A stretch of DNA of 64,000 nt. Origin: Polynucleobacter sp. HIN7. Its GTDB lineage: Bacteria > Pseudomonadota > Gammaproteobacteria > Burkholderiales > Burkholderiaceae. The notes beneath the pieces are model-generated. The model searched no databases and was not told the origin of the DNA. It worked only from the letters and a program-made list of their open reading frames with translations. This document shows positions 36,586-61,730 of this stretch, one piece after another. The translations under genes and the position numbers were made by a program. Numbering within the stretch: the first letter of the stretch is position 1; every line of letters begins with the position of its first letter. The stretch spans positions 124,001-188,000 of the forward strand of contig NZ_AP028138.1 in assembly GCF_030297595.1 (NCBI RefSeq). The letters are read 5' to 3'.

Positions 36586-36603
36586 TTTTTTTCGTCGTCG
36601 TCA

Positions 36604-36630
36604 ATCGGTGATCCATGGTGGAAAGCCGAT
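36604..36630 (+). promoter_or_regulatory. Small hairpin just upstream of the ftsZ ribosome-binding site
   Basis: ATCGG (36604-36608) pairs with CCGAT (36626-36630), and inside it TCCA (36612-36615) pairs with TGGA (36619-36622), with a symmetric 3x3 internal loop. The hairpin ends 6 nt before the strong Shine-Dalgarno AAGGAGG (36637-36643). A role in ftsZ mRNA stability or translation is a guess. Confidence 0.3.
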
Positions 36631-36648
36631 CTTATTAAGGAGGGTGTT

Positions 36649-37950
36649 ATGGAATTTGAAATGGTAGAACAAGAAACAGCTGGCAAGACCATCATTAAGG
36701 TGGTTGGTGTCGGAGGCGCTGGCGGCAATGCTGTCCAGCACATGATTCGTCGCAATGTCAACGGCGTGGAGTTTATTTGCATGAATACCGATGCAGGTGC
36801 CTTGCAGCGGTCGCAAGCAAGCTTAAACCTACAACTGGGCGAAACTGGCTTGGGCGCTGGCGCGAAGCCAGAGGTGGGCGCGGCATCTGCCGAGCAAGCT
36901 CGCTCGCGTATTGCTGATGCATTGCAAGGCGCACATATGGTGTTCATTACCGCGGGGATGGGCGGCGGTACCGGAACTGGGGCGGCCCCAGTGGTTGCTC
37001 AAGTTGCTAAAGAAATGGGCATCTTAACGGTTGGCGTGATTAGTAAGCCGTTTGACTTTGAGGGTGTGAAGCGCTTAAAAGTGGCAGAGATGGGTGCGCA
37101 AGAGTTGGAAAAGCATGTTGACTCATTAATCGTCGTTTTAAATGAAAAGCTCTTTGAGGTGATGGGTGAAGATGCAGAATTTGATAAAGCCTTTGCTTGT
37201 GCAGACGATGTATTGCATAACGCGGTATCTGGTATTGCCGAAATCATTAATGAGCAGGGCTTAATCAACGTCGACTTTGAAGATGTCAAGACTGTCATGA
37301 GTGAGCAGGGTAAAGCCATGATGGGAACGGCGACAGTTTCTGGAATGGATCGGGCGCGTTTGGCGGCAGAGGCAGCCGTTGCATCGCCACTGCTGGAGGG
37401 CGTTGATTTATCTGGCGCACGCGGTGTATTGGTCAATATCACTGCCAGTCGTTCATTGAAGTTATCCGAGACCCGTGAGGTGATGGCTGCGATTCGTGGG
37501 TATGCCGCTGAAGATGCTACGGTCATTTTTGGAACGGTGTATGACGATAGCTTGGGCGATGCCCTACGAGTAACCGTAGTGGCCACTGGACTCAATGGTT
37601 CCCAATCCCTGCAAAAGGATCAACCCCAGTTAATCTGGCGAGCTGCAACCGGTACGAATGATGCAAGTCCAACCATGACCACCTTGGGTGATTTTGCTCC
37701 AACCAGTCCAGCTGCTGCGATGAGCCGCAATGTGACCCAAGCATCGAGTGCTATGGGCTCAGCCACGGCTGCCCCAGTGAATCCTGCGGTCGATTATGGT
37801 CAGTTTGATGTTCCAAAGGTATTTCGTAATTCTCGAGAGTCTGTACCTCCAAGCCTTGGTGCCGATAGTTCGCCACAAGCGAAGGCCATGCTCGAGAAAG
37901 GGGCGGATTACTATGAGATACCTGCCTTTTTAAGGAAGCAAGCAGACTAA
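36649..37950 (+). CDS. ftsZ: Cell division GTPase FtsZ
   Basis: The tubulin homologue that forms the Z ring, 433 residues. The tubulin signature G105-G-G-T-G-T-G111 binds GTP; the T7 loop N-V-D-F-E-D-V is present. A variable linker from about 320 leads to the conserved C-terminal peptide I-P-A-F-L-R-K-Q-A-D that binds FtsA, ZapD and other partners. A strong Shine-Dalgarno sequence AAGGAGG lies 5 nt before the ATG, setting it apart from the overlap-coupled genes upstream. Confidence 0.98.
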   Translation: MEFEMVEQETAGKTIIKVVGVGGAGGNAVQHMIRRNVNGVEFICMNTDAGALQRSQASLNLQLGETGLGAGAKPEVGAASAEQARSRIADALQGAHMVFITAGMGGGTGTGAAPVVAQVAKEMGILTVGVISKPFDFEGVKRLKVAEMGAQELEKHVDSLIVVLNEKLFEVMGEDAEFDKAFACADDVLHNAVSGIAEIINEQGLINVDFEDVKTVMSEQGKAMMGTATVSGMDRARLAAEAAVASPLLEGVDLSGARGVLVNITASRSLKLSETREVMAAIRGYAAEDATVIFGTVYDDSLGDALRVTVVATGLNGSQSLQKDQPQLIWRAATGTNDASPTMTTLGDFAPTSPAAAMSRNVTQASSAMGSATAAPVNPAVDYGQFDVPKVFRNSRESVPPSLGADSSPQAKAMLEKGADYYEIPAFLRKQAD

Positions 37951-37958
37951 TAAATAAA

Positions 37959-38054
37959 CCATACAATAGTGGGTTCGAGGATTGCTAATTCAGTCGCCCC
38001 TCCGGACGACGAATCCAGCGCCTGCGTTAGCACCCCAAACCACTATTGATATGG
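37959..38054 (+). ncRNA. Long structured leader between ftsZ and the peroxiredoxin (candidate cis-regulatory RNA)
   Basis: This 96-nt stretch starts 8 nt after the ftsZ stop. Pairings read directly: CCATA (37959-37963) with TATGG (38050-38054); CAATAGTGG (37964-37972) with CCACTATTG (38040-38048); TT (37974-37975) with AA (38038-38039); GG (37979-37980) with CC (38033-38034); TGCTAA (37983-37988) with TTAGCA (38027-38032). That is 24 pairs, interrupted by small bulges and one small internal loop. An inner GTCG/CGAC (37993-37996, 38007-38010) is also possible. The outermost pairs take in the GG of the Shine-Dalgarno GGAG (38053-38056). There is no U-tract, so it is not an ordinary intrinsic terminator. 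Confidence 0.6.
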
Positions 38055-38061
38055 AGATCAC

Positions 38062-38562
38062 ATGATTGCTGTAGGACAAAAATTACCAAACGCTACCCTC
38101 TACGAGTTTTTTGATGAAGAGCGCGATGGCTGTTCCTTGGGCCCAAATGCATTTGAAGTTGACAAATTAACCGCTGGCAAAAAAATTGTTATTTTTGCTT
38201 TGCCTGGCGCATTTACACCAACCTGCTCAGCCAAGCATGTTCCAGGATTTGTGGAGCATTTTGATGCGATTAAAGCAAAAGGTGTTGATGAGATTTGGTG
38301 TGTTTCTGTCAATGACCCATTTGTGATGGGCGCATGGGGCCGGGATTTAAAGGTTGGCAAGAAAGTACGTATGTTGGGTGACGGTAGTGCTGAGTTCACC
38401 AAAAAGTTAGGCATGGAATTTGATCTAACCGCGCGTGGTCTTGGTGTTCGCTCACAACGCTATGCCATGATCGTGGATAACGGCGTTGTGAAGCATTTAG
38501 CACTCGAGGCACCTGGTAAGTTTGAAGTCAGTGATGCCGCAAATACCTTAAAGCATCTTTAA
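38062..38562 (+). CDS. Peroxiredoxin of the Prx5/AhpC-TSA type
   Basis: A thiol peroxidase of 166 residues that reduces H2O2 and organic hydroperoxides. The peroxidatic cysteine is C55 in P-G-A-F-T-P-T-C-S, the hallmark of the Prx5 group. The active-site Arg lies in R-S-Q-R-Y near 131-135. Other cysteines are C24 and C80, so a resolving cysteine or an external thiol is possible. There is no glutaredoxin fusion and no signal peptide. It sits between ftsZ and lpxC behind a long structured leader, with GGAG 5 nt before the ATG. Confidence 0.92.
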   Translation: MIAVGQKLPNATLYEFFDEERDGCSLGPNAFEVDKLTAGKKIVIFALPGAFTPTCSAKHVPGFVEHFDAIKAKGVDEIWCVSVNDPFVMGAWGRDLKVGKKVRMLGDGSAEFTKKLGMEFDLTARGLGVRSQRYAMIVDNGVVKHLALEAPGKFEVSDAANTLKHL

Positions 38563-38579
38563 TTGATATTGTGTAGGCC

Positions 38580-39497
38580 ATGGTGCTCAAGCAAAAAACT
38601 TTAGCGCAGCCGATCAAAACGGTCGGCATTGGCCTGCATTCTGGTCGTAAATCAACGCTAACCATTAAACCCGCACCGATTGATTTTGGTATTCAGTTCG
38701 TGCGGGTTGATATGCCTAACGCAGTTCCTATCCCAGCTCATGCATTGGCTGTCTGTGATACCCGCTTAGCCTCGGTGATACAGAGTCAAGGGGTCAAGGT
38801 TTCTACGGTTGAGCATTTACTATCAGCCTGTTCGGGTTTGGGATTGGATAATTTATTGATTGAGGTCGATGCGGAAGAAGTGCCGATCATGGACGGTAGT
38901 GCGGCCTCTTTTCTTTTTCTGATTGAGTCAGCTGGTACCGTTGAACAAGAGGCCCCACGCAAATTTATGGTGATTCAAAAAGCGGTGGAAGTGCGTGAAG
39001 GCAATAAATTAGCACGCCTAGAGCCACATTTTGGATTCAAGTTGGATTTCACGATTGACTTTAAGCACCCAGCAGTTGATAAAACGGGGCAGCGTTTTGT
39101 GGTCGATTTTGCTGAGCATGCTTATCGTAGTGAGATTGGTCGTGCTCGCACCTTTGGATTTGCGCATGAGGTGGAAGCCTTGCGTGAGATTGGTTTAGCT
39201 CGTGGTGGCAGTTTAGATAATGCGATTGTGCTTGATGAGCATCGCATCTTAAATAACGAAGAGTTACGTTATGACGATGAGTTTGTGCGTCATAAAATTT
39301 TGGACGCGATCGGAGATCTTTATTTGGCCGGTCACCCTATTGTCGGAGCGTACACCGCAGAAAAGTCAGGCCATGCACTTAATAACGCACTATTACGAAA
39401 GCTCTTAGACGACCCAAGTTCGTATTCGATCGAAACCTTTGATAGGGCTAGTGCCCCTGCGGCCTATCTGCAAACCCCCGAAAGCATCAACGCCTAG
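38580..39497 (+). CDS. lpxC: UDP-3-O-acyl-N-acetylglucosamine deacetylase
   Basis: The zinc enzyme that commits the precursor to lipid A synthesis. The 305-residue length is normal. Zinc ligands are H79 in S-T-V-E-H-L-L-S-A and the H-x-x-x-D pair in [11 protein letters not shown]; a late G-H motif (K-S-G-H-A-L-N) carries the catalytic His. It follows the peroxiredoxin by 17 nt, probably in the same transcript. Its 3' end overlaps the convergent dciA-like gene by 11 nt. Confidence 0.96.
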
Positions 39498-60624: not shown

Positions 60625-61188
60625 TTAGCGCAGAGTCGGTAGCTCTGCTTCGGATCCGACGGGAGCAGTGATCCCCAAAAAGTTATTGGGGTCGAGAGAC
60701 TTCACAACCTTGGCGTAACTTTTTTCTTGGGTCGCTAGATTGCAAAAAGCACCCTGAGCCAAAGCTGCCTGATAGCGATTTGGAACATTGTCCTTAATGG
60801 CTAACCAGCTACCTAAAGGATTGGCACGCCATTGCTGATTGGCTTCAAGAGTGCCATATAACCGCCACTGAAACGTATCGCACCGTATTCCTTCAAAGTA
60901 AGCATTTTGACCACCACTGGGATTGGTAATCACCACAATGTAGCGGGTAACGCCGTCGTTTCCAATCTTGATGGATTCGGTATCAACGGCAAACTTGAAA
61001 ATAGTGGTTTGCGATACTGAGAAAGGTATCAAATATTTTTTATTAGGCGGATTTAAGGGCATGGGTGTTTCCCCTTCCTTAAATACTGTTGGTGCAAACG
61101 GATCAGTCCCGTCGGCCAAGGGATCCGAAAAACAGGCACTCAGTACCGTAACTGATGATGCAAGCAAGAGAAACTGAAGTTTATTCAT
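60625..61188 (-). CDS. CNP1-like family lipoprotein
   Basis: A 187-residue exported protein. The signal peptide (core 5-17) ends in a lipobox V-L-S-A-C19, so it should be lipid-anchored. The rest contains [14 protein letters not shown] near 83-96 and E-G-I-R-C-D near 99, which I associate with the CNP1-like family named after a neisserial protein. Its function is unknown. Its ATG overlaps the rppH stop (ATGA). Confidence 0.75.
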
Positions 61189-61730
61189 GAAGGGTGCGAG
61201 GCGTGTAATGGTGCCCCCCAGACTAATTGTTGCATTTGGTTGGTGGTGACAATAAACCGGGCGAGTTCAGAGAGTGCAAGTTGATAGACCTCGCGCTTGA
61301 AATCAATCACAGTGTCGAGCTCAATCCAATATGGATGCCAGCGCCAGGCATCAAACTCAGGATGCCCTGTGGCTCGTAGTTGAATCTCATGGTCTTGGCC
61401 TAGCATTCGCAGTAAGAACCAAATTTGTTTTTGACCCTTATAAGCGACACGCTGATGACGGTGATTCATTTGGCGGCGTAAGAACTCCTCGGGCACATCG
61501 TAGCGAATCCAATCACGGGTGCGCCCAATGATCTCGACATGGTGAGGAAAAAGACCCACCTCTTCGTGGAGTTCGCGATACATTGCTTCTTCTGGACTTT
61601 CTCCGTGCGCAATTCCTCCTTGTGGAAATTGCCAAGAATGTTGTCCAATTCGTTTACCCCAAAATACTTCGTTACGAGCATTGAGAAGCACAATGCCAAC
61701 ATTAGGTCGATAGCCTTCACGGTCAAGCAT
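61185..61730 (-). CDS. rppH: RNA pyrophosphohydrolase
   Basis: Removes pyrophosphate from the 5' end of mRNAs to start decay. The 181 residues begin with Y-R-P-N-V-G-I-V-L and W-Q-F-P-Q-G-G-I, typical of RppH. The Nudix box is G38-x5-E44-x7-R52-E53-x2-E56-E57-x-G59. A Shine-Dalgarno AAGG lies about 7 nt upstream. It is divergent from proS with a 63-nt gap and coupled to the CNP1-like gene. Confidence 0.95.

Follow-up and report, generated by a model that had tools for sequence, protein, structure and literature searches.

The window analyzed here, a stretch of 64,000 nt, covers positions 124001–188000 of a 1.795-Mb genome, and around the hairpin that is our subject the gene order is ftsA, ftsZ, peroxiredoxin (prx) and lpxC. 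The ftsZ coding sequence lies at 36649–37950 on the + strand (TIGR00065; Pfam PF00091 and PF12327), and prx, of the Redoxin family, at 38062–38562 on the same strand (Pfam PF08534, E = 5.2e-39). We found prx in 148 of the 151 genus genomes searched, and the named isolates that carry the hairpin loop are Polynucleobacter. Each gene is preceded by a Shine-Dalgarno sequence, GGAGGG for ftsZ (36639–36644, +) and GGAG for prx (38053–38056, +; read from the sequence). The ftsZ leader also contains the block UUCGUCGUC (36591–36599, +), overlapped by the repeat CGTCGTCGTC (36593–36602, +), and a small hairpin (36604–36630, +; arms 36604–36609 and 36625–36630) that appears in the cofold structure of this genome's loop–leader pair (L165). 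Searching the ftsZ–prx gap against its own genome returned, besides the gap itself, merely 14–19-base matches elsewhere, on which ground a mobile or repeated element was rejected.

The gap folds into a long hairpin, for which the earlier note had described five pairs of arms. All of these are present (CCATA/TATGG, CAATAGTGG/CCACTATTG, TT/AA, GG/CC and TGCTAA/TTAGCA, 24 pairs in total), and the GG of the prx GGAG does take part in the outermost pairs. The outer stem, seen both in the pairs as read and in the fold, has its 5' arm at 37959–37975 and its 3' arm, whose terminal GG is part of the prx Shine-Dalgarno, at 38037–38054 (both +). With ViennaRNA, positions 37944–38075 fold to −37.1 kcal/mol, whereas 200 dinucleotide-shuffled sequences gave −26.8 ± 3.2 (z = −3.17) and none of them matched the native energy (0/200). 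That description had missed the inner part, where CAG/CTG (37991–37993/38022–38024) and CGC/GCG (37995–37997/38018–38020) lead up to a 20-nt apical loop, CCCUCCGGACGACGAAUCCA (37998–38017, +), the most conserved piece of the hairpin. Within the loop lie an anti-Shine-Dalgarno block, CCCUCC (37998–38003, +; block 2), and a second block, GACGACGAA (38005–38013, +; block 1). The core hairpin (37983–38032, +) is a bulged stem with compensatory changes that recurs genus-wide in our alignments and in the models R1 and R2 used below. As the earlier note had maintained, the hairpin in the window is no intrinsic terminator and matches no known riboswitch class: terminator-like sites are absent from 37700–38700, and no hairpin followed by a U tract was found at this place in the window. 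Rfam gave no match to the hairpin region. At gathering thresholds the single match in the window was a tRNA elsewhere, positions 37700–38300 gave no match at E ≤ 10, and 20 related loci gave 8 matches at E ≤ 2, each under the gathering score of its family. The hairpin is a structured, conserved, regulatory-type RNA without a match among Rfam families.

For the comparison of related genomes that the earlier note had called for, we extracted 74 distinct ftsZ–prx gaps, leaving out L002–L006 and L042 (no prx) and L013 and L029 (contig ends). They form four groups by loop and gap: 7 are of the window type (W), 55 belong to A, 9 to B and 3 to C. The loop motif CCUCC, 1–8 nt, (G/A)ACGA(C/U) is present in all 74, and was found in 19 of 20 further regions, the remaining one (L184) being a contig end. 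The stem sequences diverge greatly between gaps yet remain largely paired. In the A/W alignment A3 (21 rows), for which, as for all conservation and pairing statistics given here, relatedness is not corrected, 92.4% of the core-stem cells are paired and 6 pairs have changed on both sides, as many as in only 1 of 500 shuffles; none of the 500 reached the covariation score, slid versions of the alignment all score far lower, and further pair types are no higher than in shuffles (346/500). The B/C alignment A8 (20 rows) has 88.7% of core-stem cells paired and 9 pairs changed on both sides (2/500 shuffles), again with a covariation score reached by 0/500. G-U pairs are frequent in the core stem, and the constraint therefore acts on RNA. 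The outer stem has two positions changed on both sides in clade A, where swapping of arms gave 0/2000 versus 12/2000 for the control. Swapping gave 108/2000 in B, 346/2000 in C (three rows) and 786/2000 in W; it says little in B and C, and nothing within W, where the arms hardly differ. The core stem, then, covaries across the genus, and the outer stem does so too in clade A.

The loop is complementary to the leader of ftsZ in two separate blocks. In the window, block 1 faces UUCGUCGUC with 9 pairs, and block 2 faces the ftsZ Shine-Dalgarno GGAGGG with 6. The order is antiparallel, the loop reading 5'-CCUCC-GACGACG-3' and the leader 5'-CGUCGUC-GGAGG-3', and in the cofold the small leader hairpin between both targets brings the target blocks together. 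The loop blocks themselves are unpaired with a probability of about 0.8 in W and A. When loops and leaders were matched across 181 loci (several per genome), giving 93 distinct pairs and 14 loop forms, all 93 kept both blocks, with 7–11 contiguous pairs in block 1 and 5–10 in block 2 (G-U allowed), and CCUCC faced GGAGG in every one (93/93). The leader block before the Shine-Dalgarno reads UCGUCGUCGUC in most A/W genomes, GUCGUCGUC in B and GUAGUCGUC in most of C, and is present in 119 of 119 distinct genus leader strings, some of which are length variants of one genome. Among the 76 distinct A/W pairs, the leader has TTCGTCGTC in 71 and TCGTCGTC in 5; four leaders (L135, L164, L218 and L273) have lost or changed the next copy of the repeat and retained the paired TTCGTCGTC. 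Differences on the two sides match as well. UUCCUCCAA is paired with UUGGAGGAA in two C-type genomes, and CCUCCU with AGGAGG in another. The B loop GCCUCCU lies opposite AGGAGGU, and its variant UCCUCCU opposite AGGAGGA. For the variant loop UAACGACGAC the partner is GUCGUUGUUA, and for UGACGACUAC it is GUAGUCGUCA.

Past the paired block, the word GTCAATGTAGTA (36600–36605 in the window, and in genus leaders) is strongly conserved in A-type leaders; no partner for it was found, and the window leader has just its first part.

How specific this complementarity is depends on the measure. In the window genome, the pattern CCTCCN{0,9}GACGACG matched at the hairpin only and CGTCGTCN{10,40}GGAGG at the ftsZ leader only, a single match that is not by itself surprising because the reversed patterns match 3 times (loop) and 4 times (leader). 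In the letter-shuffled leader the frequency of a 9-mer complement was 0.0005 and that of an 8-mer complement 0.0027. When leaders were permuted among the 14 loop forms, 38 of 20000 permutations were as good for the block 2 energy and 39 of 20000 for the block sum; block 1 was not significant in the same permutation (2324/20000) because its trinucleotide repeat fits across clades. The positions beside CCUCC gave counts weakly in favor (1484 and 1697 of 20000), with mismatches there in several genomes. The matching changes in loop and leader are suggestive, and would support the pairing without being conclusive.

Against the 56 leaders of the window (68 ORFs minus 12, mostly overlapping or nested), block 1 alone ranked ftsZ first (−15.1; next −11.9), and the whole loop put ftsZ in a tie for second (−19.4) behind a leader at −23.2. 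The ftsZ value lies only some two standard deviations away from the average over 6394 window stretches, and energy by itself does not pick out ftsZ. The leader at −23.2 kcal/mol (61189–61250, minus strand) belongs to an ORF at 60625–61188 (−), and its complementarity is mostly to the CCCCUCCGGAC part. Nested cofolding, for which 4 of the 93 pairs without a matching core were set aside, formed both blocks with the stem opened in 83 of 89 pairs, the duplex lacking in 6. A nested fold of 1.5 kb, by a method that cannot form a pseudoknot, brought loop and leader together in one genome of the 12 folded, through block 1 only. For the same 89 pairs, the loop always paired better with the ftsZ leader than with the start of prx (89/89; means −22.6 vs −7.5 kcal/mol), in a comparison that somewhat favors ftsZ, whose stretch was 74 nt long; the prx stretch measured 37 or 62 nt and was taken from a single representative locus for each loop form. 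That CCUCC might instead pair with the prx Shine-Dalgarno was considered and rejected, since ftsZ was the stronger partner in all 89 pairs, with the same length bias. The main weight of the proposed pairing is carried by the two-block complementarity in 93 of 93 pairs together with the shared presence and absence of loop and target.

This shared distribution appears to follow the genus. An exact search of the contig collection with 18 bases of the A/W loop found 93 stretches, and 79 of the 80 listed sit just before prx (one, in L222, at a 4-nt distance that reflects a partial BLAST match). Upstream of these 79, ftsZ is present in 77 and the other two lack an ftsZ match; the 80th, from Planctomycetales, has neither ftsZ nor prx. 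Model R1 matched 35 of 299 genomes in the family, every one from this genus. In the order it matched 4 of 200 genomes, one of them G551, whose match outside the genus (L166) was discarded since by eye it reads as coding sequence. Model R2 matched 30 of 249 genomes in the family; 26 belong to the genus, and the other 4 are weak matches elsewhere (E 0.011–0.039). Its matches in 4 of 229 class genomes were also rejected, with neither ftsZ nor prx in a stretch of 2–3 kb (three read by eye). Among the genomes listed, R1 missed five of the genus, of which G141, G005, G032 and G116 carry the clade B loop; in R2's own sample, all of these five but G116 are among the matches listed, and R2 in turn missed five genus genomes, the window genome included. 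Since each model missed genomes of the genus, absence judged by a model alone is weak. In ten other Burkholderiaceae genera, the loop was found in 0 of 23 ftsZ–prx gaps (L117, without an ftsZ match, was omitted) and the block 1 target in 0 of 20 ftsZ leaders, 8 of the 20 genomes being also in the leader survey above. At the cut-off used, 13 of 25 family genera had no prx match, which places their gaps outside this comparison.

Taken together, these comparisons suggest that the hairpin probably serves ftsZ, and not the prx ribosome-binding site, as a regulatory RNA element, one that would lower FtsZ synthesis. The core stem would display a loop with two antisense blocks, of which CCUCC would pair with the ftsZ Shine-Dalgarno and GACGACG with CGUCGUC, about 40 nt further upstream in the ftsA–ftsZ gap. 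If formed in the cell, this pairing would block ribosome binding at the ftsZ start, and FtsZ synthesis would drop as ftsZ transcripts accumulate, a negative feedback. The source that we favor is the ftsZ 3' UTR, acting on the same mRNA or, once processed, on other copies. In clade C, 11 of 12 gaps have a run of 5–7 T between the hairpin and the prx ribosome-binding site, which fits an ftsZ 3' end better than a separate prx transcript; the longest T run is ≤ 4 in all 66 W and A gaps and 6–7 in 2 of 15 clade B gaps (52 nt scanned). For Burkholderia cenocepacia, the available text of a study of this cluster describes transcription from mraZ that reaches ftsZ, with a single distant promoter for the cluster up to ftsZ and no active internal ftsZ promoter, and its authors propose post-transcriptional control of ftsZ (PMC7761207). 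Arguing against a 3' UTR source, the same text reports that no RT-PCR product spanning ftsZ and the next gene was found (PMC7761207).

The main alternative for the source is a transcript of prx. Starting from TACAAT (37962–37967, +), a possible −10 box for prx within the 5' arm of the outer stem, a separate transcript of prx would carry the hairpin in its 5' leader. The hairpin would then act on ftsZ mRNA in trans, and inducing prx would lower FtsZ, an oxidative-stress control of division. B. cenocepacia has a gene between ftsZ and lpxC that, by its position, we take to be the prx homologue. According to the available text on that species this gene seems to be transcribed alone (PMC7761207), and in 62 A/W rows letters 1, 4, 5 and 6 of TACAAT (T, A, A, T) are invariant and the other two reach at least 90%; the preference of the loop for ftsZ over prx as a partner would also suit this reading. 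However, no promoter match was found at TACAAT and no clear −35 box was seen, and such a transcript would lose most of the outer-stem 5' arm, yet the outer stem covaries in clade A. With the clade C T runs also speaking against it, we consider a prx source for the hairpin rather unlikely. A broader reading, in which the two-block antisense hairpin sets the FtsZ level by feedback genus-wide and in some species is perhaps made from a prx promoter, wiring the peroxide response to division, is one that we put forward only tentatively.

It is improbable that the hairpin merely ends or protects the ftsZ transcript, as terminator or 3' stabilizer, with its complementarity to ftsZ having no effect. 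The T runs of clade C would suit a terminator, but positions 37700–38700 have no terminator-like site, T runs in the W and A gaps are as short as given above, and neither role requires a conserved loop. The earlier note had named protection of the ftsZ 3' end as an alternative to control of prx; its link to that end lies nearer the evidence than masking of prx does, while protection as the whole function fares as just described.

That note's principal proposal, that the hairpin masks the prx Shine-Dalgarno and places prx translation under temperature, redox or protein control, now appears very unlikely. In the window the pairing of the outer arms does extend to the GG of the prx GGAG, and the outer stem covaries in clade A, as such masking would have it. 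The mean unpaired probability of GGAG, however, showed in no clade a native site more occluded than with shuffled upstream sequence: the two are about equal in W (0.34 native, 0.35 shuffled) and A (0.38 and 0.36), and the native site is more accessible in B (0.57 and 0.50) and C (0.58 and 0.36). A prx Shine-Dalgarno more paired than expected, the mark of an RNA thermometer or leader, was thus not found in these four groups. The distance from loop to prx Shine-Dalgarno varies from 39 to 113 nt (42–55 in A/W, 68–113 in B and 39–47 in C), and masking leaves the conserved loop unexplained. Invariance of the prx GGAGA proves nothing here because the ftsZ GGAGG looks equally invariant among the ftsZ strings listed (12 of 15). 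What the genus conserves is a core stem displaying a CCUCC...GACGACG loop, not the masking of the prx ribosome-binding site, and the case illustrates that a hairpin can resemble the leader of the gene that follows it and yet have a conserved part that reads the gene before it. Least probable of all is that both places are DNA-binding sites of one protein, TTCGTCGTC flanking ftsZ in opposite orientation and the antisense resemblance being incidental, since an identical 9-bp DNA word at both places (with TTCGTCGTC in 71 of 76 distinct A/W pairs) explains neither the covarying stem with its G-U pairs nor the position of the word in the loop and the CCUCC that faces GGAGG in 93 of 93 pairs.

Division timing is set by FtsZ concentration. 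If the hairpin is the antisense element of ftsZ that we propose, it would offer a specific way in which ftsZ could be controlled within a long operon, through natural antisense feedback that acts on a core division gene and is conserved throughout the genus.

Other genera have hairpins of their own at this place. In one genome of another genus (G172, represented by loci L110 and L345), a hairpin after ftsZ, at about 1335–1390 of locus L110, has the loop UGCCUCCU, an exact complement of that genome's own ftsZ Shine-Dalgarno region AGGAGGCA with 11 contiguous pairs including one G-U, and eight T lie a little further on. From this genome, the principle of pairing may be older than its Polynucleobacter sequence. 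A swap of leaders across 20 genomes outside the genus was not significant (1113/20000). The ftsZ–prx gaps of L125–L129, L116 and L133, from other Burkholderiaceae, hold different strong hairpins with the word GGCCGCCTCCCCGGA in common, and in L125–L129 and L133 the loops are C-rich, of the CUCCCC kind (by eye); among the gap hairpins of other Burkholderiaceae that we scanned, none had an Rfam match at gathering score. The gaps of L115 and L118 have a loop UGAUUGCC that faces GGCAAUCA (L118) or, by eye, GGCAAUUA (L115), sites that sit between the Shine-Dalgarno and the start of the same genome's ftsZ; this may be chance.

Hairpin loops with an anti-Shine-Dalgarno run are familiar from the CcsR or cuckoo RNAs of alphaproteobacteria, with their CUCCUCCC loops; those RNAs differ in being multi-copy and in belonging to an unrelated locus and unrelated taxa, and we know of no second specific block in them. 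A search of the open-licence literature with narrow terms, itself weak evidence of absence, found no report of 5'–3' UTR pairing of ftsZ among the titles listed. Synthesis of FtsZ is a known RNA target in Escherichia coli, where, in the available text, DicF is a prophage-derived antisense sRNA that acts on ftsZ from another locus and blocks FtsZ synthesis (PMC9438474). Our hairpin would share with DicF its direction at FtsZ synthesis, but its antisense blocks adjoin their target in the same gene cluster. In Vibrio cholerae, OppZ and CarZ are described, in the text at hand, as 3' UTR-derived sRNAs that repress a cistron of their own operon by base pairing and allow control below the operon level, OppZ needing RNase E processing and Hfq, with long-distance pairing within one mRNA excluded (PMC7398697). 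Like them, the ftsZ hairpin is complementary to the translation start region of a gene in the same operon; unlike them, it has no intrinsic terminator with a U tail in the window. The nearest known mechanism appears by analogy to be the 5'–3' UTR pairing of icaR in Staphylococcus aureus, where the available account has UCCCCUG in the 3' UTR pairing with the Shine-Dalgarno region of its own mRNA, which interferes with translation initiation and creates an RNase III substrate (PMC3868564). The element described here differs in having two separated blocks instead of one, in carrying its antisense in the loop of a covarying hairpin, in its target, the division gene ftsZ of the dcw cluster, and in being deduced from sequence alone. 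What the two would share, with the 3' UTR position here assumed from the place of the hairpin, is a C-rich 3' motif that complements its own gene's Shine-Dalgarno.
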